Source of the DNA: Crossaster papposus
Lineage: Eukaryota; Echinodermata; Asteroidea; Velatida; Solasteridae
Direction: 5' to 3'
DNA length: 64,000 nt
NCBI GenBank assembly: GCA_037893245.1
Contig: JBAIAA010000903.1
Location: 186,001 to 250,000, forward strand
The translations under genes were made by a program, and so were the position numbers. The number at the start of each line of letters is the position of its first letter. Position 1 is the stretch's first letter. The notes beneath the pieces are model-generated. The model was given only the letters and a program-made list of their open reading frames with translations, had not been told where the DNA came from and did no database searches. Below, piece after piece: positions 2,679 through 64,000 of the stretch.

Positions 2679-2711
2679 AAACATGAAGTGGGAACAAGCC
2701 TCGAGTTAAAT
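2679..2711 (+). repeat. Spacer, aberrant 33-bp copy
   Basis: AAACATGAAGTGGGAAC lacks an AC and has a T to A change relative to type B. AAGCCTCGAG lacks one C. The next spacer is exactly 64 monomers further. It is the most degraded full copy and sits in the uniform left block. Confidence 0.93.
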
Positions 2712-4695
2712 ATGTAAAGGGAAAGAAGTGTGCATAAGAAATATGTAAAGGGAAAGAAGTGTGCATAAGAAATATGTAAAGGGAAAGAAGTGTGCATAAG
2801 AAATATGTAAAGGGAAAGAAGTGTGCATAAGAAATATGTAAAGGGAAAGAAGTGTGCATAAGAAATATGTAAAGGGAAAGAAGTGTGCATAAGAAATATG
2901 TAAAGGGAAAGAAGTGTGCATAAGAAATATGTAAAGGGAAAGAAGTGTGCATAAGAAATATGTAAAGGGAAAGAAGTGTGCATAAGAAATATGTAAAGGG
3001 AAAGAAGTGTGCATAAGAAATATGTAAAGGGAAAGAAGTGTGCATAAGAAATATGTAAAGGGAAAGAAGTGTGCATAAGAAATATGTAAAGGGAAAGAAG
3101 TGTGCATAAGAAATATGTAAAGGGAAAGAAGTGTGCATAAGAAATATGTAAAGGGAAAGAAGTGTGCATAAGAAATATGTAAAGGGAAAGAAGTGTGCAT
3201 AAGAAATATGTAAAGGGAAAGAAGTGTGCATAAGAAATATGTAAAGGGAAAGAAGTGTGCATAAGAAATATGTAAAGGGAAAGAAGTGTGCATAAGAAAT
3301 ATGTAAAGGGAAAGAAGTGTGCATAAGAAATATGTAAAGGGAAAGAAGTGTGCATAAGAAATATGTAAAGGGAAAGAAGTGTGCATAAGAAATATGTAAA
3401 GGGAAAGAAGTGTGCATAAGAAATATGTAAAGGGAAAGAAGTGTGCATAAGAAATATGTAAAGGGAAAGAAGTGTGCATAAGAAATATGTAAAGGGAAAG
3501 AAGTGTGCATAAGAAATATGTAAAGGGAAAGAAGTGTGCATAAGAAATATGTAAAGGGAAAGAAGTGTGCATAAGAAATATGTAAAGGGAAAGAAGTGTG
3601 CATAAGAAATATGTAAAGGGAAAGAAGTGTGCATAAGAAATATGTAAAGGGAAAGAAGTGTGCATAAGAAATATGTAAAGGGAAAGAAGTGTGCATAAGA
3701 AATATGTAAAGGGAAAGAAGTGTGCATAAGAAATATGTAAAGGGAAAGAAGTGTGCATAAGAAATATGTAAAGGGAAAGAAGTGTGCATAAGAAATATGT
3801 AAAGGGAAAGAAGTGTGCATAAGAAATATGTAAAGGGAAAGAAGTGTGCATAAGAAATATGTAAAGGGAAAGAAGTGTGCATAAGAAATATGTAAAGGGA
3901 AAGAAGTGTGCATAAGAAATATGTAAAGGGAAAGAAGTGTGCATAAGAAATATGTAAAGGGAAAGAAGTGTGCATAAGAAATATGTAAAGGGAAAGAAGT
4001 GTGCATAAGAAATATGTAAAGGGAAAGAAGTGTGCATAAGAAATATGTAAAGGGAAAGAAGTGTGCATAAGAAATATGTAAAGGGAAAGAAGTGTGCATA
4101 AGAAATATGTAAAGGGAAAGAAGTGTGCATAAGAAATATGTAAAGGGAAAGAAGTGTGCATAAGAAATATGTAAAGGGAAAGAAGTGTGCATAAGAAATA
4201 TGTAAAGGGAAAGAAGTGTGCATAAGAAATATGTAAAGGGAAAGAAGTGTGCATAAGAAATATGTAAAGGGAAAGAAGTGTGCATAAGAAATATGTAAAG
4301 GGAAAGAAGTGTGCATAAGAAATATGTAAAGGGAAAGAAGTGTGCATAAGAAATATGTAAAGGGAAAGAAGTGTGCATAAGAAATATGTAAAGGGAAAGA
4401 AGTGTGCATAAGAAATATGTAAAGGGAAAGAAGTGTGCATAAGAAATATGAAAAGGGAAAGAAGTGTGCATAAGAAATATGTAAAGGGAAAGAAGTGTGC
4501 ATAAGAAATATGTAAAGGGAAAGAAGTGTGCATAAGAAATATGTAAAGGGAAAGAAGTGTGCATAAGAAATATGTAAAGGGAAAGAAGTGTGCATAAGAA
4601 ATATGTAAAGGGAAAGAAGTGTGCATAAGAAATATGTAAAGGGAAAGAAGTGTGCATACGAAATATGTAAAGGGAAAGAAGTGTGCATAAGAAAT

Positions 4696-4731
4696 AAACA
4701 CATGATGTCGGGACAAGCCCTCGAGTTAAAT
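4696..4731 (+). repeat. 36-bp spacer, type A
   Basis: GATGTCGGGACAAGCC form, inserted between GAAAT and ATGTAAAGG. A TACG monomer lies 39 bp upstream. The next spacer is 71 monomers away. Confidence 0.97.
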
Positions 4732-6932
4732 ATGTAAAGGGAAAGAAGTGTGCATAAGAAATATGTAAAGGGAAAGAAGTGTGCATAAGAAATATATAAA
4801 GGGAAATAAGTGTGCATAAGAAATATGTAAAGGGAAAGAAGTGTGCATAAGAAATATGTAAAGGGAAAGAAGTGTGCATAAGAAATATGTAACGGGAAAG
4901 AAGTGTGCATAAGAAATATGTAAAGGGAAAGAAGTGTGCATAAGAAATATGTAAAGGGAAAGAAGTGTGCATAAGAAATATGTAAAGGGAAAGAAGTGTG
5001 CATAAGAAATATGTAAAGGGAAAGAAGTGTGCATAAGAAATATGTAAAGGGAAAGAAGTGTGCATAAGAAATATGTAAAGGGAAAGAAGTGTGCATAAGA
5101 AATATGTAAAGGGAAAGAAGTGTGCATAAGAAATATGTAAAGGGAAAGAAGTGTGCATAAGAAATATGTAAAGGGAAAGAAGTGTGCATAAGAAATATGT
5201 AAAGGGAAAGAAGTGTGCATAAGAAATATGTAAAGGGAAAGAAGTGTGCATAAGAAATATGTAAAGGGAAAGAAGTGTGCATAAGAAATATGTAAAGGGA
5301 AAGAAGTGTGCATAAGAAATATGTAAAGGGAAAGAAGTGTGCATAAGAAATATGTAAAGGGAAAGAAGTGTGCATAAGAAATATGTAAAGGGAAAGAAGT
5401 GTGCATAAGAAATATGTAAAGGGAAAGAAGTGTGCATAAGAAATATGTAAAGGGAAAGAAGTGTGCATAAGAAATATGTAAAGGGAAAGAAGTGTGCATA
5501 AGAAATATGTAAAGGGAAAGAAGTGTGCATAAGAAATATGTAAAGGGAAAGAAGTGTGCATAAGAAATATGTAAAGGGAAAGAAGTGTGCATAAGAAATA
5601 TGTAAAGGGAAAGAAGTGTGCATAAGAAATATGTAAAGGGAAAGAAGTGTGCATAAGAAATATGTAAAGGGAAAGAAGTGTGCATAAGAAATATGTAAAG
5701 GGAAAGAAGTGTGCATAAGAAATATGTAAAGGGAAAGAAGTGTGCATAAGAAATATGTAAAGGGAAAGAAGTGTGCATAAGAAATATGTAAAGGGAAAGA
5801 AGTGTGCATAAGAAATATGTAAAGGGAAAGAAGTGTGCATAAGAAATATGTAAAGGGAAAGAAGTGTGCATAAGAAATATGTAAAGGGAAAGAAGTGTGC
5901 ATAAGAAATATGTAAAGGGAAAGAAGTGCGCATAAGAAATATGTAAAGGGAAAGAAGTGCGCATAAGAAATATGTAAAGGGAAAGAAGTGTGCATAAGAA
6001 ATATGTAAAGGGAAAGAAGTGTGCATAAGAAATATGTAAAGGGAAAGAAGTGTGCATAAGAAATATGTAAAGGGAAAGAAGTGTGCATAAGAAATATGTA
6101 AAGGGAAAGAAGTGTGCATAAGAAATATGTAAAGGGAAAGAAGTGTGCATACGAAATATGTAAAGGGAAAGAAGTGTGCATAATAAATATGTAAAGGGAA
6201 AGAAGTGTGCATAAGAAATATGTAAAGGGAAAGAAGTGTGCATAAGAAATATGTAAAGGGAAAGAAGTGTGCATAAGAAGTATGTAAAGGGAAAGAAGTG
6301 TGCATAAGAAATATGTAAAGGGAAAGAAGTGTGCATAAGAAATATGTAAAGGGAAAGAAGTGTGCATAAGAAATATGTAAAGGGAAAGAAGTGTGCATAA
6401 GAAATATGTAAAGGGAAAGAAGTGTGCAAAAGAAATATGTAAAGGGAAAGAAGTGTGCATAAGAAATATGTAAAGGGAAAGAAGTGTGCATAAGAAATAT
6501 GTAAAGGGAAAGAAGTGTGCATAAGAAATATGTAAAGGAAAAGAAGTGTGCATAAGAAATATGTAAAGGGAAAAAAGTGTGCATAAGAAATATGTAAAGG
6601 GAAAGAAGTGTGCATAAGAAATATGTAAAGGGAAAGAAGTGTTCATAAGAAATATGTAAAGGGAAAGAAGTGTGCATAAGAAATATGTAAAGGGAAAGAA
6701 GTGTGCATAAGAAATATGTAAAGGGAAAGAAGTGTGCATAAGAAATATGTAAAGGGAAAGAAGTGTGCATAAGAAATATGTAAAGGGAAAGAAGTGTGCA
6801 TAAGAAATATGTAAAGGGAAAGAAGTGTGCATAAGAAATATATAAAGGGAAAGAAGTGTGCATAAGAAATATGTAAAGGGAAAGAAGTGTGCATACGAAA
6901 TATGTAAAGGGAAAGAAGTGTGCATAAGAAAT

Positions 6933-12348: not shown

Positions 12349-12384
12349 AAACACATGATGTCGGGACAAGCCCTCGAGTGAAAT
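12349..12384 (+). repeat. 36-bp spacer, type A, GTGAAAT end
   Basis: Ends CTCGAGTGAAAT instead of CTCGAGTTAAAT, a single T to G change seen only here. On the minus strand this replaces the usual in-frame TAA of the spacer, so that reading frame stays open. It is the last spacer before a 10.2-kb spacer-free stretch. Confidence 0.97.
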
Positions 12385-12890
12385 ATGTAAAGGGAAAGAA
12401 GTGTGCATAAGAAATATGTAAAGGGAAAGAAGTGTGCATAAGAAATATGTAAAGGGAAAGAAGTGTGCATAAGAAATATGTAAAGGGAAAGAAGTGTGCA
12501 TAAGAAATATGTAAAGGGAAAGAAGTGTGCATAAGAAATATGTAAAGGGAAAGAAGTGTGCATAAGAAATATGTAAAGGGAAAGAAGTGTGCATAAGAAA
12601 TATGTAAAGGGAAAGAAGTGTGCATAAGAAATATGTAAAGGGAAAGAAGTGTGCATAAGAAATATGTAAAGGGAAAGAAGTTTGCATAAGAAATATGTAA
12701 AGGGAAAGAAGTGTGCATAAGAAATATGTAAAGGGAAAGAAGTGTGTATAAGAAATATCTAAAGGGAAAGAAGTGTGCATAAGAAATATGTAAAGGGAAA
12801 GAAGTGTGCATAAGAAATATGTAAAGGGAAAGAAGTGTGCATAAGAAATATGTAAAGGGAAAGAAGTGTGCATAATAAATATGTAAAGGG

Positions 12891-15800
12891 AAAGAAGTGT
12901 GCATAAGAAATATGTAAAGGGAAAGAAGTGTGCATAAGAAATATGTAAAGGGAAAGAAGTGTGCATAAGAAATATGTAAAGGGAAAGAAGTGTGCATAAG
13001 AAATATGTAAAGGGAAAGAAGTGTGCATAAGAAATATGTAAAGGGAAAGAAGTGTGCATAAGAAATATGTAAAGGGAAAGAAGTGTGCATAAGAAATATG
13101 TAAAGGGAAAGAAGTGTGCATAAGAAATATGTAAAGGGAAAGAAGTGTGCATAAGAAATATGTAAAGGGAAAGAAGTGTGCATAAGAAATATGTAAAGGG
13201 AAAGAAGTGTGCATAAGAAATATGTAAAGGGAAAGAAGTGTGCATAAGAAATATGTAAAGGGAAAGAAGTGTGCATAAGAAATATGTAAAGGGAAAGAAG
13301 TGTGCATAAGAAATATGTAAAGGGAAAGAAGTGTGCATAAGAAATATGTAAAGGGAAAGAAGTGTGCATAAGAAATATGTAAAGGGAAAGAAGTGTGCAT
13401 AAGAAATATGTAAAGGGAAAGAAGTGTGCATAAGAAATATGTAAAGGGAAAGAAGTGTGCATAAGAAATATGTAAAGGGAAAGAAGTGTGCATAAGAAAT
13501 ATGTAAAGGGAAAGAAGTGTGCATAAGAAATATGTAAAGGGAAAGAAGTGTGCATAAGAAATATGTAAAGGGAAAGAAGTGTGCATAAGAAATATGTAAA
13601 GGGAAAGAAGTGTGCATAAGAAATATGTAAAGGGAAAGAAGTGTGCATAAGAAATATGTAAAGGGAAAGAAGTGTGCATAAGAAATATGTAAAGGGAAAG
13701 AAGTGTGCATAAGAAATATGTAAAGGGAAAGAAGTGTGCATAAGAAATATGTAAAGGGAAAGAAGTGTGCATAAGAAATATGTAAAGGGAAAGAAGTGTG
13801 CATAAGAAATATGTAAAGGGAAAGAAGTGTGCATAAGAAATATGTAAAGGGAAAGAAGTGTGCATAAGAAATATGTAAAGGGAAAGAAGTGTGCATAAGA
13901 AATATGTAAAGGGAAAGAAGTGTGCATAAGAAATATGTAAAGGGAAAGAAGTGTGCATAAGAAATATGTAAAGGGAAAGAAGTGTGCATAAGAAATATGT
14001 AAAGGGAAAGAAGTGTGCATAAGAAATATGTAAAGGGAAAGAAGTGTGCATAAGAAATATGTAAAGGGAAAGAAGTGTGCATAAGAAATATGTAAAGGGA
14101 AAGAAGTGTGCATAAGAAATATGTAAAGGGAAAGAAGTGTGCATAAGAAATATGTAAAGGGAAAGAAGTGTGCATAAGAAATATGTAAAGGGAAAGAAGT
14201 GTGCATAAGAAATATGTAAAGGGAAAGAAGTGTGCATAAGAAATATGTAAAGGGAAAGAAGTGTGCATAAGAAATATGTAAAGGGAAAGAAGTGTGCATA
14301 AGAAATATGTAAAGGGAAAGAAGTGTGCATAAGAAATATGTAAAGGGAAAGAAGTGTGCATAAGAAATATGTAAAGGGAAAGAAGTGTGCATAAGAAATA
14401 TGTAAAGGGAAAGAAGTGTGCATAAGAAATATGTAAAGGGAAAGAAGTGTGCATAAGAAATATGTAAAGGGAAAGAAGTGTGCATAAGAAATATGTAAAG
14501 GGAAAGAAGTGTGCATAAGAAATATGTAAAGGGAAAGAAGTGTGCATAAGAAATATGTAAAGGGAAAGAAGTGTGCATAAGAAATATGTAAAGGGAAAGA
14601 AGTGTGCATAAGAAATATGTAAAGGGAAAGAAGTGTGCATAAGAAATATGTAAAGGGAAAGAAGTGTGCATAAGAAATATGTAAAGGGAAAGAAGTGTGC
14701 ATAAGAAATATGTAAAGGGAAAGAAGTGTGCATAAGAAATATGTAAAGGGAAAGAAGTGTGCATAAGAAATATGTAAAGGGAAAGAAGTGTGCATAAGAA
14801 ATATGTAAAGGGAAAGAAGTGTGCATAAGAAATATGTAAAGGGAAAGAAGTGTGCATAAGAAATATGTAAAGGGAAAGAAGTGTGCATAAGAAATATGTA
14901 AAGGGAAAGAAGTGTGCATAAGAAATATGTAAAGGGAAAGAAGTGTGCATAAGAAATATGTAAAGGGAAAGAAGTGTGCATAAGAAATATGTAAAGGGAA
15001 AGAAGTGTGCATAAGAAATATGTAAAGGGAAAGAAGTGTGCATAAGAAATATGTAAAGGGAAAGAAGTGTGCATAAGAAATATGTAAAGGGAAAGAAGTG
15101 TGCATAAGAAATATGTAAAGGGAAAGAAGTGTGCATAAGAAATATGTAAAGGGAAAGAAGTGTGCATAAGAAATATGTAAAGGGAAAGAAGTGTGCATAA
15201 GAAATATGTAAAGGGAAAGAAGTGTGCATAAGAAATATGTAAAGGGAAAGAAGTGTGCATAAGAAATATGTAAAGGGAAAGAAGTGTGCATAAGAAATAT
15301 GTAAAGGGAAAGAAGTGTGCATAAGAAATATGTAAAGGGAAAGAAGTGTGCATAAGAAATATGTAAAGGGAAAGAAGTGTGCATAAGAAATATGTAAAGG
15401 GAAAGAAGTGTGCATAAGAAATATGTAAAGGGAAAGAAGTGTGCATAAGAAATATGTAAAGGGAAAGAAGTGTGCATAAGAAATATGTAAAGGGAAAGAA
15501 GTGTGCATAAGAAATATGTAAAGGGAAAGAAGTGTGCATAAGAAATATGTAAAGGGAAAGAAGTGTGCATAAGAAATATGTAAAGGGAAAGAAGTGTGCA
15601 TAAGAAATATGTAAAGGGAAAGAAGTGTGCATAAGAAATATGTAAAGGGAAAGAAGTGTGCATAAGAAATATGTAAAGGGAAAGAAGTGTGCATAAGAAA
15701 TATGTAAAGGGAAAGAAGTGTGCATAAGAAATATGTAAAGGGAAAGAAGTGTGCATAAGAAATATGTAAAGGGAAAGAAGTGTGCATAAGAAATATGTAA

Positions 15801-18800
15801 AGGGAAAGAAGTGTGCATAAGAAATATGTAAAGGGAAAGAAGTGTGCATAAGAAATATGTAAAGGGAAAGAAGTGTGCATAAGAAATATGTAAAGGGAAA
15901 GAAGTGTGCATAAGAAATATGTAAAGGGAAAGAAGTGTGCATAAGAAATATGTAAAGGGAAAGAAGTGTGCATAAGAAATATGTAAAGGGAAAGAAGTGT
16001 GCATAAGAAATATGTAAAGGGAAAGAAGTGTGCATAAGAAATATGTAAAGGGAAAGAAGTGTGCATAAGAAATATGTAAAGGGAAAGAAGTGTGCATAAG
16101 AAATATGTAAAGGGAAAGAAGTGTGCATAAGAAATATGTAAAGGGAAAGAAGTGTGCATAAGAAATATGTAAAGGGAAAGAAGTGTGCATAAGAAATATG
16201 TAAAGGGAAAGAAGTGTGCATAAGAAATATGTAAAGGGAAAGAAGTGTGCATAAGAAATATGTAAAGGGAAAGAAGTGTGCATAAGAAATATGTAAAGGG
16301 AAAGAAGTGTGCATAAGAAATATGTAAAGGGAAAGAAGTGTGCATAAGAAATATGTAAAGGGAAAGAAGTGTGCATAAGAAATATGTAAAGGGAAAGAAG
16401 TGTGCATAAGAAATATGTAAAGGGAAAGAAGTGTGCATAAGAAATATGTAAAGGGAAAGAAGTGTGCATAAGAAATATGTAAAGGGAAAGAAGTGTGCAT
16501 AAGAAATATGTAAAGGGAAAGAAGTGTGCATAAGAAATATGTAAAGGGAAAGAAGTGTGCATAAGAAATATGTAAAGGGAAAGAAGTGTGCATAAGAAAT
16601 ATGTAAAGGGAAAGAAGTGTGCATAAGAAATATGTAAAGGGAAAGAAGTGTGCATAAGAAATATGTAAAGGGAAAGAAGTGTGCATAAGAAATATGTAAA
16701 GGGAAAGAAGTGTGCATAAGAAATATGTAAAGGGAAAGAAGTGTGCATAAGAAATATGTAAAGGGAAAGAAGTGTGCATAAGAAATATGTAAAGGGAAAG
16801 AAGTGTGCATAAGAAATATGTAAAGGGAAAGAAGTGTGCATAAGAAATATGTAAAGGGAAAGAAGTGTGCATAAGAAATATGTAAAGGGAAAGAAGTGTG
16901 CATAAGAAATATGTAAAGGGAAAGAAGTGTGCATAAGAAATATGTAAAGGGAAAGAAGTGTGCATAAGAAATATGTAAAGGGAAAGAAGTGTGCATAAGA
17001 AATATGTAAAGGGAAAGAAGTGTGCATAAGAAATATGTAAAGGGAAAGAAGTGTGCATAAGAAATATGTAAAGGGAAAGAAGTGTGCATAAGAAATATGT
17101 AAAGGGAAAGAAGTGTGCATAAGAAATATGTAAAGGGAAAGAAGTGTGCATAAGAAATATGTAAAGGGAAAGAAGTGTGCATAAGAAATATGTAAAGGGA
17201 AAGAAGTGTGCATAAGAAATATGTAAAGGGAAAGAAGTGTGCATAAGAAATATGTAAAGGGAAAGAAGTGTGCATAAGAAATATGTAAAGGGAAAGAAGT
17301 GTGCATAAGAAATATGTAAAGGGAAAGAAGTGTGCATAAGAAATATGTAAAGGGAAAGAAGTGTGCATAAGAAATATGTAAAGGGAAAGAAGTGTGCATA
17401 AGAAATATGTAAAGGGAAAGAAGTGTGCATAAGAAATATGTAAAGGGAAAGAAGTGTGCATAAGAAATATGTAAAGGGAAAGAAGTGTGCATAAGAAATA
17501 TGTAAAGGGAAAGAAGTGTGCATAAGAAATATGTAAAGGGAAAGAAGTGTGCATAAGAAATATGTAAAGGGAAAGAAGTGTGCATAAGAAATATGTAAAG
17601 GGAAAGAAGTGTGCATAAGAAATATGTAAAGGGAAAGAAGTGTGCATAAGAAATATGTAAAGGGAAAGAAGTGTGCATAAGAAATATGTAAAGGGAAAGA
17701 AGTGTGCATAAGAAATATGTAAAGGGAAAGAAGTGTGCATAAGAAATATGTAAAGGGAAAGAAGTGTGCATAAGAAATATGTAAAGGGAAAGAAGTGTGC
17801 ATAAGAAATATGTAAAGGGAAAGAAGTGTGCATAAGAAATATGTAAAGGGAAAGAAGTGTGCATAAGAAATATGTAAAGGGAAAGAAGTGTGCATAAGAA
17901 ATATGTAAAGGGAAAGAAGTGTGCATAAGAAATATGTAAAGGGAAAGAAGTGTGCATAAGAAATATGTAAAGGGAAAGAAGTGTGCATAAGAAATATGTA
18001 AAGGGAAAGAAGTGTGCATAAGAAATATGTAAAGGGAAAGAAGTGTGCATAAGAAATATGTAAAGGGAAAGAAGTGTGCATAAGAAATATGTAAAGGGAA
18101 AGAAGTGTGCATAAGAAATATGTAAAGGGAAAGAAGTGTGCATAAGAAATATGTAAAGGGAAAGAAGTGTGCATAAGAAATATGTAAAGGGAAAGAAGTG
18201 TGCATAAGAAATATGTAAAGGGAAAGAAGTGTGCATAAGAAATATGTAAAGGGAAAGAAGTGTGCATAAGAAATATGTAAAGGGAAAGAAGTGTGCATAA
18301 GAAATATGTAAAGGGAAAGAAGTGTGCATAAGAAATATGTAAAGGGAAAGAAGTGTGCATAAGAAATATGTAAAGGGAAAGAAGTGTGCATAAGAAATAT
18401 GTAAAGGGAAAGAAGTGTGCATAAGAAATATGTAAAGGGAAAGAAGTGTGCATAAGAAATATGTAAAGGGAAAGAAGTGTGCATAAGAAATATGTAAAGG
18501 GAAAGAAGTGTGCATAAGAAATATGTAAAGGGAAAGAAGTGTGCATAAGAAATATGTAAAGGGAAAGAAGTGTGCATAAGAAATATGTAAAGGGAAAGAA
18601 GTGTGCATAAGAAATATGTAAAGGGAAAGAAGTGTGCATAAGAAATATGTAAAGGGAAAGAAGTGTGCATAAGAAATATGTAAAGGGAAAGAAGTGTGCA
18701 TAAGAAATATGTAAAGGGAAAGAAGTGTGCATAAGAAATATGTAAAGGGAAAGAAGTGTGCATAAGAAATATGTAAAGGGAAAGAAGTGTGCATAAGAAA

Positions 18801-21800
18801 TAAGAAAGGAAAGAAGTGTGCATAAGAAATATGTAAAGGGAAAGAAGTGTGCATAAGAAATATGTAAAGGGAAAGAAGTGTGCATAAGAAATATGTAAAG
18901 GGAAAGAAGTGTGCATAAGAAATATGTAAAGGGAAAGAAGTGTGCATAAGAAATATGTAAAGGGAAAGAAGTGTGCATAAGAAATATGTAAAGGGAAAGA
19001 AGTGTGCATAAGAAATATGTAAAGGGAAAGAAGTGTGCATAAGAAATATGTAAAGGGAAAGAAGTGTGCATAAGAAATATGTAAAGGGAAAGAAGTGTGC
19101 ATAAGAAATATGTAAAGGGAAAGAAGTGTGCATAAGAAATATGTAAAGGGAAAGAAGTGTGCATAAGAAATATGTAAAGGGAAAGAAGTGTGCATAAGAA
19201 ATATGTAAAGGGAAAGAAGTGTGCATAAGAAATATGTAAAGGGAAAGAAGTGTGCATAAGAAATATGTAAAGGGAAAGAAGTGTGCATAAGAAATATGTA
19301 AAGGGAAAGAAGTGTGCATAAGAAATATGTAAAGGGAAAGAAGTGTGCATAAGAAATATGTAAAGGGAAAGAAGTGTGCATAAGAAATATGTAAAGGGAA
19401 AGAAGTGTGCATAAGAAATATGTAAAGGGAAAGAAGTGTGCATAAGAAATATGTAAAGGGAAAGAAGTGTGCATAAGAAATATGTAAAGGGAAAGAAGTG
19501 TGCATAAGAAATATGTAAAGGGAAAGAAGTGTGCATAAGAAATATGTAAAGGGAAAGAAGTGTGCATAAGAAATATGTAAAGGGAAAGAAGTGTGCATAA
19601 GAAATATGTAAAGGGAAAGAAGTGTGCATAAGAAATATGTAAAGGGAAAGAAGTGTGCATAAGAAATATGTAAAGGGAAAGAAGTGTGCATAAGAAATAT
19701 GTAAAGGGAAAGAAGTGTGCATAAGAAATATGTAAAGGGAAAGAAGTGTGCATAAGAAATATGTAAAGGGAAAGAAGTGTGCATAAGAAATATGTAAAGG
19801 GAAAGAAGTGTGCATAAGAAATATGTAAAGGGAAAGAAGTGTGCATAAGAAATATGTAAAGGGAAAGAAGTGTGCATAAGAAATATGTAAAGGGAAAGAA
19901 GTGTGCATAAGAAATATGTAAAGGGAAAGAAGTGTGCATAAGAAATATGTAAAGGGAAAGAAGTGTGCATAAGAAATATGTAAAGGGAAAGAAGTGTGCA
20001 TAAGAAATATGTAAAGGGAAAGAAGTGTGCATAAGAAATATGTAAAGGGAAAGAAGTGTGCATAAGAAATATGTAAAGGGAAAGAAGTGTGCATAAGAAA
20101 TATGTAAAGGGAAAGAAGTGTGCATAAGAAATATGTAAAGGGAAAGAAGTGTGCATAAGAAATATGTAAAGGGAAAGAAGTGTGCATAAGAAATATGTAA
20201 AGGGAAAGAAGTGTGCATAAGAAATATGTAAAGGGAAAGAAGTGTGCATAAGAAATATGTAAAGGGAAAGAAGTGTGCATAAGAAATATGTAAAGGGAAA
20301 GAAGTGTGCATAAGAAATATGTAAAGGGAAAGAAGTGTGCATAAGAAATATGTAAAGGGAAAGAAGTGTGCATAAGAAATATGTAAAGGGAAAGAAGTGT
20401 GCATAAGAAATATGTAAAGGGAAAGAAGTGTGCATAAGAAATATGTAAAGGGAAAGAAGTGTGCATAAGAAATATGTAAAGGGAAAGAAGTGTGCATAAG
20501 AAATATGTAAAGGGAAAGAAGTGTGCATAAGAAATATGTAAAGGGAAAGAAGTGTGCATAAGAAATATGTAAAGGGAAAGAAGTGTGCATAAGAAATATG
20601 TAAAGGGAAAGAAGTGTGCATAAGAAATATGTAAAGGGAAAGAAGTGTGCATAAGAAATATGTAAAGGGAAAGAAGTGTGCATAAGAAATATGTAAAGGG
20701 AAAGAAGTGTGCATAAGAAATATGTAAAGGGAAAGAAGTGTGCATAAGAAATATGTAAAGGGAAAGAAGTGTGCATAAGAAATATGTAAAGGGAAAGAAG
20801 TGTGCATAAGAAATATGTAAAGGGAAAGAAGTGTGCATAAGAAATATGTAAAGGGAAAGAAGTGTGCATAAGAAATATGTAAAGGGAAAGAAGTGTGCAT
20901 AAGAAATATGTAAAGGGAAAGAAGTGTGCATAAGAAATATGTAAAGGGAAAGAAGTGTGCATAAGAAATATGTAAAGGGAAAGAAGTGTGCATAAGAAAT
21001 ATGTAAAGGGAAAGAAGTGTGCATAAGAAATATGTAAAGGGAAAGAAGTGTGCATAAGAAATATGTAAAGGGAAAGAAGTGTGCATAAGAAATATGTAAA
21101 GGGAAAGAAGTGTGCATAAGAAATATGTAAAGGGAAAGAAGTGTGCATAAGAAATATGTAAAGGGAAAGAAGTGTGCATAAGAAATATGTAAAGGGAAAG
21201 AAGTGTGCATAAGAAATATGTAAAGGGAAAGAAGTGTGCATAAGAAATATGTAAAGGGAAAGAAGTGTGCATAAGAAATATGTAAAGGGAAAGAAGTGTG
21301 CATAAGAAATATGTAAAGGGAAAGAAGTGTGCATAAGAAATATGTAAAGGGAAAGAAGTGTGCATAAGAAATATGTAAAGGGAAAGAAGTGTGCATAAGA
21401 AATATGTAAAGGGAAAGAAGTGTGCATAAGAAATATGTAAAGGGAAAGAAGTGTGCATAAGAAATATGTAAAGGGAAAGAAGTGTGCATAAGAAATATGT
21501 AAAGGGAAAGAAGTGTGCATAAGAAATATGTAAAGGGAAAGAAGTGTGCATAAGAAATATGTAAAGGGAAAGAAGTGTGCATAAGAAATATGTAAAGGGA
21601 AAGAAGTGTGCATAAGAAATATGTAAAGGGAAAGAAGTGTGCATAAGAAATATGTAAAGGGAAAGAAGTGTGCATAAGAAATATGTAAAGGGAAAGAAGT
21701 GTGCATAAGAAATATGTAAAGGGAAAGAAGTGTGCATAAGAAATATGTAAAGGGAAAGAAGTGTGCATAAGAAATATGTAAAGGGAAAGAAGTGTGCATA

Positions 21801-22550
21801 AGAAATATGTAAAGGGAAAGAAGTGTGCATAAGAAATATGTAAAGGGAAAGAAGTGTGCATAAGAAATATGTAAAGGGAAAGAAGTGTGCATAAGAAATA
21901 TGTAAAGGGAAAGAAGTGTGCATAAGAAATATGTAAAGGGAAAGAAGTGTGCATAAGAAATATGTAAAGGGAAAGAAGTGTGCATAAGAAATATGTAAAG
22001 GGAAAGAAGTGTGCATAAGAAATATGTAAAGGGAAAGAAGTGTGCATAAGAAATATGTAAAGGGAAAGAAGTGTGCATAAGAAATATGTAAAGGGAAAGA
22101 AGTGTGCATAAGAAATATGTAAAGGGAAAGAAGTGTGCATAAGAAATATGTAAAGGGAAAGAAGTGTGCATAAGAAATATGTAAAGGGAAAGAAGTGTGC
22201 ATAAGAAATATGTAAAGGGAAAGAAGTGTGCATAAGAAATATGTAAAGGGAAAGAAGTGTGCATAAGAAATATGTAAAGGGAAAGAAGTGTGCATAAGAA
22301 ATATGTAAAGGGAAAGAAGTGTGCATAAGAAATATGTAAAGGGAAAGAAGTGTGCATAAGAAATATGTAAAGGGAAAGAAGTGTGCATAAGAAATATGTA
22401 AAGGGAAAGAAGTGTGCATAAGAAATATGTAAAGGGAAAGAAGTGTGCATAAGAAATATGTAAAGGGAAAGAAGTGTGCATAAGAAATATGTAAAGGGAA
22501 AGAAGTGTGCATAAGAAATATGTAAAGGGAAAGAAGTGTGCATAAGAAAT
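12891..22550 (+). repeat. Homogenised satellite core, left part
   Basis: About 311 monomers with no substitution that I could see. The only irregularity is a 29-bp monomer at 18784-18812. The distance from the 12349 spacer to the 22551 spacer is 10,202 bp, which is 36 + 328x31 minus 2, matching that single 2-bp deletion. There is no spacer for more than 10 kb, against one per about 640 bp further right. Confidence 0.92.
18784..18812 (+). repeat. 29-bp monomer in the uniform core
   Basis: AAATAAGAAAGGAAAG replaces the usual AAATATGTAAAGGGAAAG. The net change is -2 bp. It is isolated, with hundreds of canonical monomers on each side. Confidence 0.9.
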
Positions 22551-22587
22551 AAACGACATGATGTGGGAACAAGCCCTCGAGTTAAAT
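22551..22587 (+). repeat. Spacer, type B with extra G (37 bp)
   Basis: AAACGACATGATG has one additional G relative to AAACACATGATG. It is the only full spacer in the homogenised core. Confidence 0.96.
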
Positions 22588-42848: not shown

Positions 42849-42884
42849 AAACACATGATGTCGGGACAAGCCCTCGAGTTAAAT
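42849..42884 (+). repeat. 36-bp spacer, type A
   Basis: Counterpart of 40194. AAATTTG near 43132 and AGCAATATG near 43407. Next spacer after 27 monomers. Confidence 0.97.
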
Positions 42885-43721: not shown

Positions 43722-43757
43722 AAACACATGATGTCGGGACAAGCCCTCGAGTTAAAT
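43722..43757 (+). repeat. 36-bp spacer, type A
   Basis: Counterpart of 41067 but without its AAATAAG neighbour and three monomers shorter to the next spacer (8 monomers). Confidence 0.97.
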
Positions 43758-44005
43758 ATGTAAAGGGAAAGAAGTGTGCATAAGAAATATGTAAAGGGAA
43801 AGAAGTGTGCATAAGAAATATGTAAAGGGAAAGAAGTGTGCATAAGAAATATGTAAAGGGAAAGAAGTGTGCATAAGAAATATGTAAAGGGAAAGAAGTG
43901 TGCATAAGAAATATGTAAAGGGAAAGAAGTGTGCATAAGAAATATGTAAAGAGAAAGAAGTGTGCATAAGAAATATGTAAAGGGAAAGAAGTGTGCATAA
44001 GAAAT

Positions 44006-45012: not shown

Positions 45013-45048
45013 AAACACATGATGTGGGAACAAGCCCTCGAGTTAAAT
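45013..45048 (+). repeat. 36-bp spacer, type B with TACG at +90
   Basis: Next spacer after 21 monomers, as after 38541. The interval contains a GTAAAGATAAAG monomer near 45336. Confidence 0.97.
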
Positions 45049-45699
45049 ATGTAAAGGGAAAGAAGTGTGCATAAGAAATATGTAAAGGGAAAGAAGTGTG
45101 CATACGAAATATGTAAAGGGAAAGAAGTGTGCATAAGAAATATGTAAAGGGAAAGAAGTGTGCATAAGAAATATGTAAAGGGAAAGAAGTGTGCATAAGA
45201 AATATGTAAAGGGAAAGAAGTGTGCATAAGAAATATGTAAAGGGAAAGAAGTGTGCATAAGAAATATGTAAAGGGAAAGAAGTGTGCATAAGAAATATGT
45301 AAAGGGAAAGAAGTGTGCATAAGAAATATGTAAAGATAAAGAAGTGTGCATAAGAAATATGTAAAGGGAAAGAAGTGTGCATAATAAATATGTAAAGGGA
45401 AAGAAGTGTGCATAATAAATATGTAAAGGGAAAGAAGTGTGCATAAGAAATATGTAAAGGGAAAGAAGTGTGCATAAGAAATATGTAAAGGGAAAGAAGT
45501 GTGCATAATAAATATGTAAAGGGAAAGAAGTGTGCATAAGAAATATGTAAAGGGAAAGAAGTGTGCATAAGAAATATGTAAAGGGAAAGAAGTGTGCATA
45601 AGAAATATGTAAAGGGAAAGAAGTGTGCATAAGAAATATGTAAAGGGAAAGAAGTGTGCATAAGAAATATGTAAAGGGAAAGAAGTGTGCATAAGAAAT

Positions 45700-45735
45700 A
45701 AACACATGATGTGGGAACAAGCCCTCGAGTTAAAT
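45700..45735 (+). repeat. 36-bp spacer, type B with GCAAAAG at +118
   Basis: Next spacer after 12 monomers. A shortened version of the 39228 module. Confidence 0.97.
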
Positions 45736-46107
45736 ATGTAAAGGGAAAGAAGTGTGCATAAGAAATATGTAAAGGGAAAGAAGTGTGCATAAGAAATATG
45801 TAAAGGGAAAGAAGTGTGCAAAAGAAATATGTAAAGGGAAAGAAGTGTGCATAAGAAATATGTAAAGGGAAAGAAGTGTGCATAAGAAATATGTAAAGGG
45901 AAAGAAGTGTGCATAAGAAATATGTAAAGGGAAAGAAGTGTGCATAAGAAATATGTAAAGGGAAAGAAGTGTGCATAAGAAATATGTAAAGGGAAAGAAG
46001 TGTGCATAAGAAATATGTAAAGGGAAAGAAGTGTGCATAAGAAATATGTAAAGGGAAAGAAGTGTGCATAATAAATATGTAAAGGGAAAGAAGTGTGCAT
46101 AAGAAAT

Positions 46108-46143
46108 AAACACATGATGTCGGGACAAGCCCTCGAGTTAAAT
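46108..46143 (+). repeat. 36-bp spacer, type A
   Basis: Followed by an AAATAAGTAAAGG monomer near 46171. Next spacer (type B) after 10 monomers. Confidence 0.97.
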
Positions 46144-46453
46144 ATGTAAAGGGAAAGAAGTGTGCATAAGAAATAAGTAAAGGGAAAGAAGTGTGCATAA
46201 GAAATATGTAAAGGGAAAGAAGTGTGCATAAGAAATATGTAAAGGGAAAGAAGTGTGCATAATAAATATGTAAAGGGAAAGAAGTGTGCATAAGAAATAT
46301 GTAAAGGGAAAGAAGTGTGCATAAGAAATATGTAAAGGGAAAGAAGTGTGCATAAGAAATATGTAAAGGGAAAGAAGTGTGCATAAGAAATATGTAAAGG
46401 GAAAGAAGTGTGCATAAGAAATATGTAAAGGGAAAGAAGTGTGCATAAGAAAT

Positions 46454-46489
46454 AAACACATGATGTGGGAACAAGCCCTCGAGTTAAAT
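46454..46489 (+). repeat. 36-bp spacer, type B
   Basis: No TACG or GCAAAAG mark follows. Next spacer after 11 monomers. Confidence 0.97.
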
Positions 46490-46830
46490 ATGTAAAGGGA
46501 AAGAAGTGTGCATAAGAAATATGTAAAGGGAAAGAAGTGTGCATAAGAAATATGTAAAGGGAAAGAAGTGTGCATAAGAAATATGTAAAGGGAAAGAAGT
46601 GTGCATAAGAAATATGTAAAGGGAAAGAAGTGTGCATAAGAAATATGTAAAGGGAAAGAAGTGTGCATAAGAAATATGTAAAGGGAAAGAAGTGTGCATA
46701 AGAAATATGTAAAGGGAAAGAAGTGTGCATAAGAAATATGTAAAGGGAAAGAAGTGTGCATAAGAAATATGTAAAGGGAAAGAAGTGTGCATAAGAAATA
46801 TGTAAAGGGAAAGAAGTGTGCATAAGAAAT

Positions 46831-46866
46831 AAACACATGATGTGGGAACAAGCCCTCGAGTTAAAT
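46831..46866 (+). repeat. 36-bp spacer, type B with GCAAAAG at +118
   Basis: Repeats the 45700 arrangement (12 monomers to a type A spacer, then 10 to a type B) at an offset of 1,131 bp. Confidence 0.97.
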
Positions 46867-47238
46867 ATGTAAAGGGAAAGAAGTGTGCATAAGAAATATG
46901 TAAAGGGAAAGAAGTGTGCATAAGAAATATGTAAAGGGAAAGAAGTGTGCAAAAGAAATATGTAAAGGGAAAGAAGTGTGCATAAGAAATATGTAAAGGG
47001 AAAGAAGTGTGCATAAGAAATATGTAAAGGGAAAGAAGTGTGCATAAGAAATATGTAAAGGGAAAGAAGTGTGCATAAGAAATATGTAAAGGGAAAGAAG
47101 TGTGCATAAGAAATATGTAAAGGGAAAGAAGTGTGCATAAGAAATATGTAAAGGGAAAGAAGTGTGCATAAGAAATATGTAAAGGGAAAGAAGTGTGCAT
47201 AATAAATATGTAAAGGGAAAGAAGTGTGCATAAGAAAT

Positions 47239-47274
47239 AAACACATGATGTCGGGACAAGCCCTCGAGTTAAAT
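47239..47274 (+). repeat. 36-bp spacer, type A
   Basis: Counterpart of 46108 in the 1,131-bp repeat. Next spacer after 10 monomers. Confidence 0.97.
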
Positions 47275-47584
47275 ATGTAAAGGGAAAGAAGTGTGCATAA
47301 GAAATATGTAAAGGGAAAGAAGTGTGCATAAGAAATATGTAAAGGGAAAGAAGTGTGCATAAGAAATATGTAAAGGGAAAGAAGTGTGCATAATAAATAT
47401 GTAAAGGGAAAGAAGTGTGCATAAGAAATATGTAAAGGGAAAGAAGTGTGCATAAGAAATATGTAAAGGGAAAGAAGTGTGCATAACAAATATGTAAAGG
47501 GAAAGAAGTGTGCATAAGAAATATGTAAAGGGAAAGAAGTGTGCATAAGAAATATGTAAAGGGAAAGAAGTGTGCATAAGAAAT

Positions 47585-47620
47585 AAACACATGATGTGGG
47601 AACAAGCCCTCGAGTTAAAT
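47585..47620 (+). repeat. 36-bp spacer, type B
   Basis: Next spacer after 21 monomers. The interval holds TAATAAAT (48018, 48080), GGGCAAG (48095) and AAAAAAG (48128) variants. Confidence 0.97.
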
Positions 47621-48271
47621 ATGTAAAGGGAAAGAAGTGTGCATAAGAAATATGTAAAGGGAAAGAAGTGTGCATAAGAAATATGTAAAGGGAAAGAAGT
47701 GTGCATAAGAAATATGTAAAGGGAAAGAAGTGTGCATAAGAAATATGTAAAGGGAAAGAAGTGTGCATAAGAAATATGTAAAGGGAAAGAAGTGTGCATA
47801 AGAAATATGTAAAGGGAAAGAAGTGTGCATAAGAAATATGTAAAGGGAAAGAAGTGTGCATAAGAAATATGTAAAGGGAAAGAAGTGTGCATAAGAAATA
47901 TGTAAAGGGAAAGAAGTGTGCATAAGAAATATGTAAAGGGAAAGAAGTGTGCATAAGAAATATGTAAAGGGAAAGAAGTGTGCATAAGAAATATGTAAAG
48001 GGAAAGAAGTGTGCATAATAAATATGTAAAGGGAAAGAAGTGTGCATAAGAAATATGTAAAGGGAAAGAAGTGTGCATAATAAATATGTAAAGGGCAAGA
48101 AGTGTGCATAAGAAATATGTAAAGGGAAAAAAGTGTGCATAAGAAATATGTAAAGGGAAAGAAGTGTGCATAAGAAATATGTAAAGGGAAAGAAGTGTGC
48201 ATAAGAAATATGTAAAGGGAAAGAAGTGTGCATAAGAAATATGTAAAGGGAAAGAAGTGTGCATAAGAAAT

Positions 48272-58354: not shown

Positions 58355-58390
58355 AAACACATGATGTGGGAACAAGCCCTCGAGTTAAAT
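58355..58390 (+). repeat. 36-bp spacer, type B
   Basis: Next spacer after 29 monomers. The interval belongs to the first copy of the 2,190-bp duplication. Confidence 0.97.
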
Positions 58391-59289
58391 ATGTAAAGGG
58401 AAAGAAGTGTGCATAAGAAATATGTAAAGGGAAAGAAGTGTGCATAAGAAATATGTAAAGGGAAAGAAGTGTGCATAAGAAATATGTAAAGGGAAAGAAG
58501 TGTGCATAAGAAATATGTAAAGGGAAAGAAGTGTGCATAAGAAATATGTAAAGGGAAAGAAGTGTGCATAAGAAATATGTAAAGGGAAAGAAGTGTGCAT
58601 AAGAAATATGTAAAGGGAAAGAAGTGTGCATAAGAAATATGTAAAGGGAAAGAAGTGTGCATAAGAAATATGTAAAGGGAAAGAAGTGTGCATAAGAAAT
58701 ATGTAAAGGGAAAGAAGTGTGCATAATAAATATGTAAAGGGAAAGAAGTGTGCATAAGAAATATGTAAAGGGAAAGAAGTGTGCATAAGAAATATGTAAA
58801 GGGAAATAAGTGTGCATAAGAAATATGTAAAGGGAAAGAAGTGTGCATAAGAAATATGTAAAGGGAAATAAGTGTGCATAAGAAATATGTAAAGGGAAAG
58901 AAGTGTGCATAAGAAATATGTAAAGGGAAAGACGTGTGCATAAGAAATATGTAAAGGGAAAGAAGTGTGCATAAGAAATATGTAAAGGGAAAGAAGTGTG
59001 CATAAGAAATATGTAAAGGGAAAGAAGTGTGCATAAGAAATATGTAAAGGGAAAGAAGTGTGCATAAGAAATATGTAAAGGGAAAGAAGTGTGCATAAGA
59101 AATATGTAAAGGGAAAGAAGTGTGCATAAGAAATATGTAAAGGGAAAGAAGTGTGCATAAGAAATATGTAAAGGGAAAGAAGTGTGCATAAGAAATATGT
59201 AAAGGGAAAGAAGTGTGCATAAGAAATATGTAAAGGGAAAGAAGTGTGCATAAGAAATATGTAAAGGGAAAGAAGTGTGCATAATAAAT

Positions 59290-59325
59290 AAACACATGAT
59301 GTCGGGACAAGCCCTCGAGTTAAAT
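59290..59325 (+). repeat. 36-bp spacer, type A after TAATAAAT
   Basis: The monomer directly before it is TAATAAAT rather than TAAGAAAT. Same at its duplicate 61480. Next spacer after 6 monomers. Confidence 0.97.
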
Positions 59326-59511
59326 ATGTAAAGGGAAAGAAGTGTGCATAAGAAATATGTAAAGGGAAAGAAGTGTGCATAAGAAATGTGTAAAGGGAAA
59401 GAAGTGTGAATAAGAAATATGTAAAGGGAAAGAAGTGTGCATAAGAAATATGTAAAGGGAAAGAAGTGTGCATAAGAAATATGTAAAGGGAAAGAAGTGT
59501 GCATAAGAAAT

Positions 59512-59547
59512 AAACACATGATGTGGGAACAAGCCCTCGAGTTAAAT
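59512..59547 (+). repeat. 36-bp spacer, type B with TACG at +90
   Basis: Counterpart of 61702. Next spacer after 22 monomers. Confidence 0.97.
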
Positions 59548-60229
59548 ATGTAAAGGGAAAGAAGTGTGCATAAGAAATATGTAAAGGGAAAGAAGTGTGC
59601 ATACGAAATATGTAAAGGGAAAGAAGTGTGCATAAGAAATATGTAAAGGGAAAGAAGTGTGCATAAGAAATATGTAAAGGGAAAGAAGTGTGCATAAGAA
59701 ATATGTAAAGGGAAAGAAGTGTGCATAAGAAATATGTAAAGGGAAAGAAGTGTGCATAAGAAATATGTAAAGGGAAAGAAGTGTGCATAAGAAATATGTA
59801 AAGGGAAAGAAGTGTGCATAAGAAATATGTAAAGGGAAAGAAGTGTGCATAAGAAATATGTAAAGGGAAAGAAGTGTGCATAAGAAATATGTAAAGGGAA
59901 AGAAGTGTGCATAAGAAATATGTAAAGGGAAAGAAGTGTGCATAATAAATATGTAAAGGGAAAGAAGTGTGCATAAGAAATATGTAAAGGGAAAGAAGTG
60001 TGCATAAGAAATATGTAAAGGGAAAGAAGTGTGCATAATAAATATGTAAAGGGAAAGAAGTGTGCATAAGAAATATGTAAAGGGAAAGAAGTGTGCATAA
60101 GAAATATGTAAAGGGAAAGAAGTGTGCATAAGAAATATGTAAAGGGAAAGAAGTGTGCATAAGAAATATGTAAAGGGAAAGAAGTGTGCATAAGAAATAT
60201 GTAAAGGGAAAGAAGTGTGCATAAGAAAT

Positions 60230-60265
60230 AAACACATGATGTGGGAACAAGCCCTCGAGTTAAAT
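60230..60265 (+). repeat. 36-bp spacer, type B with GCAAAAG at +118
   Basis: Counterpart of 62420, but cut short: another spacer follows after 7 monomers, where the duplication restarts. Confidence 0.97.
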
Positions 60266-60482
60266 ATGTAAAGGGAAAGAAGTGTGCATAAGAAATATGT
60301 AAAGGGAAAGAAGTGTGCATAAGAAATATGTAAAGGGAAAGAAGTGTGCAAAAGAAATATGTAAAGGGAAAGAAGTGTGCATAAGAAATATGTAAAGGGA
60401 AAGAAGTGTGCATAAGAAATATGTAAAGGGAAAGAAGTGTGCATAAGAAATATGTAAAGGGAAAGAAGTGTGCATAAGAAAT

Positions 60483-60518
60483 AAACACATGATGTGGGAA
60501 CAAGCCCTCGAGTTAAAT
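60483..60518 (+). repeat. 36-bp spacer, type B with TACG at +90
   Basis: Lies at the seam of the 2,190-bp tandem duplication. Next spacer after 31 monomers. Confidence 0.97.
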
Positions 60519-61479
60519 ATGTAAAGGGAAAGAAGTGTGCATAAGAAATATGTAAAGGGAAAGAAGTGTGCATACGAAATATGTAAAGGGAAAGAAGTGT
60601 GCATAAGAAATATGTAAAGGGAAAGAAGTGTGCATAAGAAATATGTAAAGGGAAAGAAGTGTGCATAAGAAATATGTAAAGGGAAAGAAGTGTGCATAAG
60701 AAATATGTAAAGGGAAAGAAGTGTGCATAAGAAATATGTAAAGGGAAAGAAGTGTGCATAAGAAATATGTAAAGGGAAAGAAGTGTGCATAAGAAATATG
60801 TAAAGGGAAAGAAGTGTGCATAAGAAATATGTAAAGGGAAAGAAGTGTGCATAAGAAATATGTAAAGGGAAAGAAGTGTGCATAAGAAATATGTAAAGGG
60901 AAAGAAGTGTGCATAATAAATATGTAAAGGGAAAGAAGTGTGCATAAGAAATATGTAAAGGGAAAGAAGTGTGCATAAGAAATATGTAAAGGGAAATAAG
61001 TGTGCATAAGAAATATGTAAAGGGAAAGAAGTGTGCATAAGAAATATGTAAAGGGAAATAAGTGTGCATAAGAAATATGTAAAGGGAAAGAAGTGTGCAT
61101 AAGAAATATGTAAAGGGAAAGACGTGTGCATAAGAAATATGTAAAGGGAAAGAAGTGTGCATAAGAAATATGTAAAGGGAAAGAAGTGTGCATAAGAAAT
61201 ATGTAAAGGGAAAGAAGTGTGCATAAGAAATATGTAAAGGGAAAGAAGTGTGCATAAGAAATATGTAAAGGGAAAGAAGTGTGCATAAGAAATATGTAAA
61301 GGGAAAGAAGTGTGCATAAGAAATATGTAAAGGGAAAGAAGTGTGCATAAGAAATATGTAAAGGGAAAGAAGTGTGCATAAGAAATATGTAAAGGGAAAG
61401 AAGTGTGCATAAGAAATATGTAAAGGGAAAGAAGTGTGCATAAGAAATATGTAAAGGGAAAGAAGTGTGCATAATAAAT

Positions 61480-61515
61480 AAACACATGATGTCGGGACAA
61501 GCCCTCGAGTTAAAT
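61480..61515 (+). repeat. 36-bp spacer, type A after TAATAAAT
   Basis: Exactly 2,190 bp from its counterpart at 59290. Next spacer after 6 monomers, as there. Confidence 0.97.
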
Positions 61516-61701
61516 ATGTAAAGGGAAAGAAGTGTGCATAAGAAATATGTAAAGGGAAAGAAGTGTGCATAAGAAATGTGTAAAGGGAAAGAAGTGTGAA
61601 TAAGAAATATGTAAAGGGAAAGAAGTGTGCATAAGAAATATGTAAAGGGAAAGAAGTGTGCATAAGAAATATGTAAAGGGAAAGAAGTGTGCATAAGAAA
61701 T

Positions 61702-61737
61702 AAACACATGATGTGGGAACAAGCCCTCGAGTTAAAT
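61702..61737 (+). repeat. 36-bp spacer, type B with TACG at +90
   Basis: Duplicate of 59512. Next spacer after 22 monomers. Confidence 0.97.
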
Positions 61738-62419
61738 ATGTAAAGGGAAAGAAGTGTGCATAAGAAATATGTAAAGGGAAAGAAGTGTGCATACGAAATA
61801 TGTAAAGGGAAAGAAGTGTGCATAAGAAATATGTAAAGGGAAAGAAGTGTGCATAAGAAATATGTAAAGGGAAAGAAGTGTGCATAAGAAATATGTAAAG
61901 GGAAAGAAGTGTGCATAAGAAATATGTAAAGGGAAAGAAGTGTGCATAAGAAATATGTAAAGGGAAAGAAGTGTGCATAAGAAATATGTAAAGGGAAAGA
62001 AGTGTGCATAAGAAATATGTAAAGGGAAAGAAGTGTGCATAAGAAATATGTAAAGGGAAAGAAGTGTGCATAAGAAATATGTAAAGGGAAAGAAGTGTGC
62101 ATAAGAAATATGTAAAGGGAAAGAAGTGTGCATAATAAATATGTAAAGGGAAAGAAGTGTGCATAAGAAATATGTAAAGGGAAAGAAGTGTGCATAAGAA
62201 ATATGTAAAGGGAAAGAAGTGTGCATAATAAATATGTAAAGGGAAAGAAGTGTGCATAAGAAATATGTAAAGGGAAAGAAGTGTGCATAAGAAATATGTA
62301 AAGGGAAAGAAGTGTGCATAAGAAATATGTAAAGGGAAAGAAGTGTGCATAAGAAATATGTAAAGGGAAAGAAGTGTGCATAAGAAATATGTAAAGGGAA
62401 AGAAGTGTGCATAAGAAAT

Positions 62420-62455
62420 AAACACATGATGTGGGAACAAGCCCTCGAGTTAAAT
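62420..62455 (+). repeat. 36-bp spacer, type B with GCAAAAG at +118
   Basis: Starts a further copy of the 39228 module: GCCTAAAAAAT at +273, GATATATG at +403, GTGAAAG at +663, type A spacer at +966. Confidence 0.97.
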
Positions 62456-63385
62456 ATGTAAAGGGAAAGAAGTGTGCATAAGAAATATGTAAAGGGAAAG
62501 AAGTGTGCATAAGAAATATGTAAAGGGAAAGAAGTGTGCAAAAGAAATATGTAAAGGGAAAGAAGTGTGCATAAGAAATATGTAAAGGGAAAGAAGTGTG
62601 CATAAGAAATATGTAAAGGGAAAGAAGTGTGCATAAGAAATATGTAAAGGGAAAGAAGTGTGCATAAGAAATATGTAAAGGGAAAGAAGTGTGCCTAAAA
62701 AATATGTAAAGGGAAAGAAGTGTGCATAAGAAATATGTAAAGGGAAAGAAGTGTGCATAAGAAATATGTAAAGGGAAAGAAGTGTGCATAAGAAATATGT
62801 AAAGGGAAAGAAGTGTGCATAAGATATATGTAAAGGGAAAGAAGTGTGCATAATAAATATGTAAAGGGAAAGAAGTGTGCATAAGAAATATGTAAAGGGA
62901 AAGAAGTGTGCATAAGAAATATGTAAAGGGAAAGAAGTGTGCATAAGAAATATGTAAAGGGAAAGAAGTGTGCATAAGAAATATGTAAAGGGAAAGAAGT
63001 GTGCATAAGAAATATGTAAAGGGAAAGAAGTGTGCATAAGAAATATGTAAAGGGAAAGAAGTGTGCATAAGAAATATGTAAAGTGAAAGAAGTGTGCATA
63101 AGAAATATGTAAAGGGAAAGAAGTGTGCATGAGAAATATGTAAAGGGAAGGAAGTGTGCATAAGAAATATGTAAAGGGAAAGAAGTGTGCATAAGAAATA
63201 TGTAAAGGGAAAGAAGTGTGCATAAGAAATATGTAAAGGGAAAGAAGTGTGCATAAGAAATATGTGAAGGGAAAGAAGTGTGCATAAGAAATATGTAAAG
63301 GGAAAGAAGTGTGCATAAGAAATATGTAAAGGGAAAGAAGTGTGCATAAGAAATATTCAAAGGGAAAGAAGTGTGCATAAGAAAT

Positions 63386-63421
63386 AAACACATGATGTCG
63401 GGACAAGCCCTCGAGTTAAAT
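63386..63421 (+). repeat. 36-bp spacer, type A (last in window)
   Basis: Followed by AAATTTG (about +283), ATGAAAAGG (about +378) and AGCAATATG (+558), the same order as after 40194. The window ends 579 bp later. Confidence 0.97.
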
Positions 63422-64000
63422 ATGTAAAGGGAAAGAAGTGTGCATAAGAAATATGTAAAGGGAAAGAAGTGTGCATAAGAAATATGTAAAGGGAAAGAAG
63501 TGTGCATAAGAAATATGTAAAGGGAAAGAAGTGTGCATAAGAAATATGTAAAGGGAAAGAAGTGTGCATAAGAAATATGTAAAGGGAAAGAAGTGTGCAT
63601 AAGAAATATGTAAAGGGAAAGAAGTGTGCATAAGAAATATGTAAAGGGAAAGAAGTGTGCATAATAAATTTGTAAAGGGAAAGAAGTGTGCATAAGAAAT
63701 ATGTAAAGGGAAAGAAGTGTGCATAAGAAATATGTAAAGGGAAAGAAGTGTGCATAAGAAATATGAAAAGGGAAAGAAGTGTGCATAAGAAATATGTAAA
63801 GGGAAAGAAGTGTGCATAAGAAATATGTAAAGGGAAAGAAGTGTGCATAAGAAATATGTAAAGGGAAAGAAGTGTGCATAAGAAATATGTAAAGGGAAAG
63901 AAGTGTGCATAAGAAATATGTAAAGGGAAAGAAGTGTGCATAAGCAATATGTAAAGGGAAAGAAGTGTGCATAAGAAATATGTAAAGGGAAAGAAGTGTG

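Follow-up and report, generated by a model that had tools for sequence, protein, structure and literature searches.

A 31-bp satellite array with a co-amplified spacer in Crossaster papposus

The stretch of DNA analysed here (the window; 64,000 nucleotides, positions 186,001 to 250,000 of contig JBAIAA010000903.1 from the Crossaster papposus assembly GCA_037893245.1) is a real and clean satellite, built of a 31-bp monomer, which holds 66 co-amplified spacers of about 36 bp each. These spacers sit in a single phase and a single orientation, their sequence types are linked to variants in the flanking monomers, and blocks bearing several of them have been duplicated. The array very probably goes back to a single entry or origin of the spacer, which would have diverged into types A and B before segments were duplicated in the monomer register and monomers were amplified locally, the latter probably more recently.

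The array and its monomer

Tandem Repeats Finder (TRF), examined for periods up to 500, describes the window as a single head-to-tail array, with one main row spanning positions 1–64000 (period 31, 2054.3 copies, 94% matches) and the remaining ten rows all nested within it. The array, which is read on the + strand in the register ATGTAAAGGGAAAGAAGTGTGCATAAGAAAT, runs off both ends of the window, with unique flanking sequence on neither side. A previous sequence-only reading had recognized the 31-bp monomers and the spacer of about 36 bp, but placed the array at 2679–64000; while the satellite itself is real, it is already present at base 1, and 2679 is merely the position of the first spacer.

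The units were delimited by a Viterbi parse in which the 31-bp monomer forms a cycle and the spacer a branch, with states for the + strand alone. Because entry and exit were left free at any monomer position, the phase of the spacers is measured and not assumed. The parse yields 1991 monomer units including partials, 1980 of which have a length of 31 bp. Among the 11 units to which the parse assigns another length are two incomplete ones, with which the window begins and ends, and two edge fragments that the parse itself created; two 32-bp monomers lie at 7062 and 8871. As many as 1680 of the 1991 units are identical to the consensus, in runs of up to 191, and this long head-to-tail array of one unit, with its copies homogenized as under concerted evolution, has the features of a satellite. 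Its G+C content is 32–33% across the whole window, with a GC skew of 0.70–0.80 in 2-kb steps (base counts: A 30651, C 2565, G 18294, T 12490).

Transitions are not overrepresented among the substitutions found in the monomers: of the 55 distinct changes, 18 are transitions and 37 are transversions, in a count that is limited by partial saturation, with 55 of the 93 possible changes seen. The most variable position of the monomer is 27, occupied by G, which holds 93 of the 325 substituted cells. The change G27T creates an AATAAA motif, as the junction between monomer and spacer likewise does (both by eye), and 132 non-overlapping copies of this motif are present in the window.

Two spacer types in a single register

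Sixty of the 66 spacers correspond to one of two exact sequences, and the other six are singletons; only three have a parsed length other than 36 bp. Type B, which contains GTGGGAACAAG, is present in 36 exact copies (a typical one lies at 26863–26898, + strand), and type A, which contains GTCGGGACAAG, in 24 (for instance at 4696–4731, + strand). When sorted by core motif, 39 spacers belong to type B, 25 to type A, and two to neither. The first spacer (2679–2711, + strand) is a 33-bp variant which, according to the parse and to alignments, is B-like with small deletions.

Entry into the spacer takes place after the same monomer base in 65 of the 66 cases, and exit to the same base also in 65, with both edges in one shared phase for 64 spacers. 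The two exceptions each have one changed base at the edge: the spacer at 22552 has gained a G, and the one at 12349 ends with G instead of T. Regarding orientation, none of the distinct 10-mers of the monomer (0/31), of type A (0/27), or of type B (0/27) is found on the minus strand, while all of them are present on the plus strand. The single position and the single orientation that had been noticed from the sequence are thus borne out, apart from these two one-base edge changes.

It had also been claimed that neighbouring spacers start 36 + 31n bp apart, and this is exact in 59 of the 65 spacings, with n ranging from 5 to 328 (nearest whole number). The remaining six have residuals of −3 to +1, which accompany the few odd-length units, including the 32-bp monomers at 7062 and 8871, and which had been attributed to visible indels. 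Since the parse forces agreement, the residuals equal the summed deviations in unit length modulo 31, and the real content of this test is the scarcity of odd-length units.

Spacers are copied together with their flanks

The regularity of the spacers had been taken to exclude independent insertion. Phase-lock alone also fits site-specific insertion, and it is further evidence that backs copying. This evidence comes from the variants of the monomers that flank the spacers. Over 64 blocks, 284 variants are shared at equal offset from the left spacer (shuffle mean 103.7, maximum of 500 shuffles 149), and 398 at equal offset from the right spacer (shuffle mean 103.6, maximum of 500 shuffles 147). 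Sliding the offsets by one to three monomers lowers the left-hand count from 284 to 102.5–120.5, and the same slide without the commonest variant lowers it from 161 to 18–29.5. These variants are, moreover, linked to the type of spacer, with 254 downstream variants shared over 994 pairs of same-type blocks versus six over 897 different-type pairs, a difference that was matched by none of 1000 shuffles of the type labels.

In addition, blocks with two or three spacers have been duplicated whole. Among the three-spacer segments (all on the + strand), that at 58387–60483 has a copy at 60577–62673 (2098 bp, 0 mismatches, distance 2190 bp), and that at 39038–41115 has a copy at 41693–43770 (2079 bp, 3 mismatches, distance 2655 bp). 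The segment at 45510–46831 is copied at 46641–47962 (1323 bp, 2 mismatches), and both copies overlap in tandem, as the distance between them is just 1131 bp. Altogether, of the 2145 possible pairs of spacers, 44 have one or more further spacers in common at equal spacing. Offset-locked and type-linked variants, together with the duplication of whole blocks, indicate that the spacers move as part of the array, as the sequence-only reading had proposed, and that segmental duplication has spread them along with their flanks.

Two blocks of 21 monomers (38541–39227 and 45013–45699) resemble, by their variants at offsets 2 and 15, two 10-monomer blocks in which the intervening spacer has been replaced by one monomer. 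This hints at the loss of a spacer by conversion or deletion, or at a gain in the opposite direction.

Domains of the array

The density of spacers is uneven, with eight of them before 26.8 kb and 58 after. The stretch at 12380–26862 (+ strand) is nearly homogeneous, holding one full spacer (at 22552) and identical monomers in unbroken runs of 191, 120, and 98. The longest of these runs extends over 12881–18801, and the eight runs of at least 25 identical monomers found in the window all end before 25.7 kb. The following domain (26863–64000, + strand) is spacer-dense, and its 58 spacers, with a median spacing of 687 bp, form irregular higher-order repeats (HORs). As in HORs, multi-unit blocks are repeated with high identity (the three neighbouring block duplications described above), but no regular higher-order period stands out from 200 to 1198 bp, and the array is HOR-like only. 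The share of exact monomers declines with more spacers over sixteen 4-kb bins (Spearman −0.60, nominal p 0.013), in a loose relation, as the bins covering 4–12 kb hold three and two spacers, and yet 86% and 78% of their monomers are exact.

Proposed history of the spacer

In the history that we infer, with its single origin, its possible repair event, and its order of events, a short foreign segment would have entered the 31-bp array once. Alternatively, the spacer may have arisen once within the array by microhomology-type repair, leaving AAATA as a 5-bp repeat on either side of a core of 31 bp. It would then have diverged into types A and B, and kilobase segments would have been duplicated in the monomer register, either by unequal exchange or by replication-based amplification, carrying spacers along with neighbouring variant monomers and thereby producing the irregular HORs. 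Spacer-free monomers would have been amplified locally, probably more recently, to give the homogeneous stretch of 12.4–26.9 kb.

The ends of the spacer indeed allow a reading in which AAATA stands on both sides of a 31-bp core, flanks which fit a target-site duplication or one microhomology event, and so hint at either. Microhomology events probably occur in the array, since two of its features have short shared letters at their joint. One is a monomer–spacer hybrid unit of 30 bp (26120–26149, + strand), in which the first 17 bp of the monomer are followed by the 3′ part of a spacer. Both portions are joined at a shared AAG, and the unit holds the sole CTCGAG outside the parsed spacers (the 67th in the window). 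The other is a 7-bp deletion within 1508–1562, with short repeats at its joint (by eye). The hybrid unit has CC in place of CCC, a feature in common with the 33-bp spacer at 2679.

Several points weigh against this history. Downstream variants common to both types are very few (the six over 897 pairs mentioned above), and therefore A and B may have originated separately at one phase, although we infer a single origin for both together. When 20000 inserts were shuffled and placed at random phase, 193 gave a flanking repeat of at least 5 bp, in a test devised after the repeat had been seen. The shuffle and label tests count blocks as independent though many of them are copies of each other, and hence their results express linkage and not probabilities. 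The proposed sequence of events, in which spacers are gained and the array grows, goes beyond what a single window shows, and the long identical runs may contain assembly errors. Lastly, the dense domain has no prominent spacer period in the range of 200–1198 bp, since the peak observed is reached in 254 of 300 permutations of the gaps, and the higher-order structure is therefore irregular.

The array records the evolution of a satellite with unusual clarity, as near-identical monomers serve as a blank background on which two spacer types plus point variants reveal the segments that were copied as one. Models of unequal exchange and of replication-based amplification could be tested against each other on it. 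It points to no new mechanism, and represents a clear but ordinary example of how satellites evolve.

Alternative explanations

The fixed phase and orientation of the spacers would also be expected if they were a tiny mobile or site-specifically inserting element, entering the same site of many monomers independently. The 5-bp AAATA direct repeat around the 31-bp core fits this view, as do the ends of the core (AAC...GTT), complementary over just 3 bp (by eye). However, downstream monomer variants track the type of spacer, so that same-type flanks are not independent, and multi-spacer blocks are duplicated. A 31-bp core is, besides, too short to encode its own enzyme. In plasmid and phage collections, searched by BLAST with the low-complexity filter on, no copy was found: the region 26800–28300 had no match among plasmids and, among phages, one 22-bp match at E 2, which recurs in three records of the same phage and is at chance level. 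Independent insertion as the main mode of spread is largely refuted, and an element of this kind is extremely improbable. The regularity could also be in part an artefact of the assembly, where identical repeats have been over- or under-expanded. In favour of this are the identical monomers in runs as long as 191 and the perfect copy of a 2098-bp segment, but spacers, types, and variants appear in many distinct, non-identical combinations, and phase-lock is independent of copy number, which makes this explanation highly improbable.

A further explanation dispenses with the foreign segment, and considers the spacer a strongly diverged and lengthened monomer, with two monomer classes in the array. 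Both components have the same phase and the same AAAT end, a GGGAA..AAG stretch is common to them (by eye), and the hybrid unit at 26120 is joined at AAG. Against it, alignment scores between spacer and monomer are no better than those of shuffles. On the + strand, local and semiglobal scores were reached by 647–957 of 1000 shuffles, and on the minus strand by 90–965 of 1000. Global scores were reached, with all letters shuffled, in 1088 (type B), 1570 (type A), and 489 (33-bp variant) of 3000 shuffles, and, with the AAAT tail kept, in 2564, 2851, and 1785 of 3000, respectively, while the score of the left part of the 33-bp variant was reached by 696 of 5000. A relation between spacer and monomer is not detectable by these scores, and their homology was rejected; descent from the monomer is very unlikely.

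Coding capacity, folding, and function

Judging from its sequence, the array is most likely non-coding. The 52 open reading frames (ORFs) of at least 300 amino acids found in the window are all on the minus strand, with the longest reaching 5607 amino acids. They were rejected as genes, as their great length results from a monomer without TTA, CTA, or TCA. On the + strand, the monomer has TAA and its length is not divisible by 3, which puts a stop in all frames (by eye). An automatic gene caller could take the minus-strand ORFs for giant repeat proteins.

Folding of the spacer as a hairpin was also rejected, since three spacer sequences fold as single-stranded DNA no better than shuffles (z −0.05, −0.19, and −0.33). 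For a monomer pair, z is −1.40, with 24 of 200 shuffles as good. No inverted repeats of at least 8 bp are present around the first spacer (2600–2800), and no Rfam match was obtained in 26000–32000 up to E 10. Helical phasing of AA/TT at 10.33 bp was discarded as well, as the third harmonic was reached by 1184 of 2000 shuffles.

The palindrome CTCGAG is present in all 66 spacers, 93 of the 127 CpG sites of the window are in or at the edge of spacers, and a 36-bp spacer shifts the 31-bp phase by 5 bp, roughly half a turn of the helix. On these grounds, the spacer might be kept as a working punctuation mark, e.g., as a putative protein-binding or methylation site, which is very unlikely. If it were so, selection or drive, and not only hitch-hiking, would maintain the density of spacers. 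No function beyond that of a satellite array need be assumed.

Comparison with known satellites

No relative of the array emerged from the literature or from the prokaryote, viral, phage, and plasmid searches, an outcome that agrees with a eukaryotic source but would not by itself establish it. A 20-bp pattern of the monomer (the query did not include the spacer) has no exact match in viral and prokaryote genome contigs. In the literature, a search by sequence letters retrieved only the unrelated sharing of one 14-letter stretch, and a search by phrase (31-bp satellite, tandem repeat, or monomer) retrieved nothing relevant. The monomer of alpha satellite measures about 171 bp.

HORs formed by block amplification are standard for satellites, as in primate alpha satellite, where, as in this array, blocks of variant units are amplified together and whole blocks recur at high identity (PMC8122249). 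Unlike alpha satellite, the array has near-identical monomers of 31 bp, a second component of other sequence, and irregular block lengths. Closer in unit length is satellite I of cervids and bovids, described with 31-bp subrepeats in monomers of about 0.7–1 kb and with 54% G+C in two species (PMC7288315), which was compared by description. In contrast to this G+C-rich satellite, the array has 32–33% G+C, with 18294 G versus 2565 C on one strand. As for monomers of 0.7–1 kb, the spacer positions give no standout period from 200 to 1198 bp, and TRF covered periods of up to 500. RproSat29-31 from Rhodnius prolixus, compared by unit length, also has a repeat unit of 31 bp (PMC8199985).

The closest described arrangement met in the literature is that of the subterminal heterochromatin of great apes, in which the 32-bp pCht satellite is accompanied by spacers made of segmental duplications (SD spacers; PMC12926204). 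Compared by description, both systems consist of a short tandem unit, rich in A and T, with spacers at intervals. All 429–452 SD spacers of Pan are reported to have one origin, with a modal length of 32 kb and a mean distance of 287 kb (PMC12926204). The spacers of this array are amplified with their flanks, and types A and B together would have a single origin. Unlike the SD spacers, which span tens of kilobases and are about a thousand times longer, they measure about 36 bp and lie 0.2–10 kb apart.

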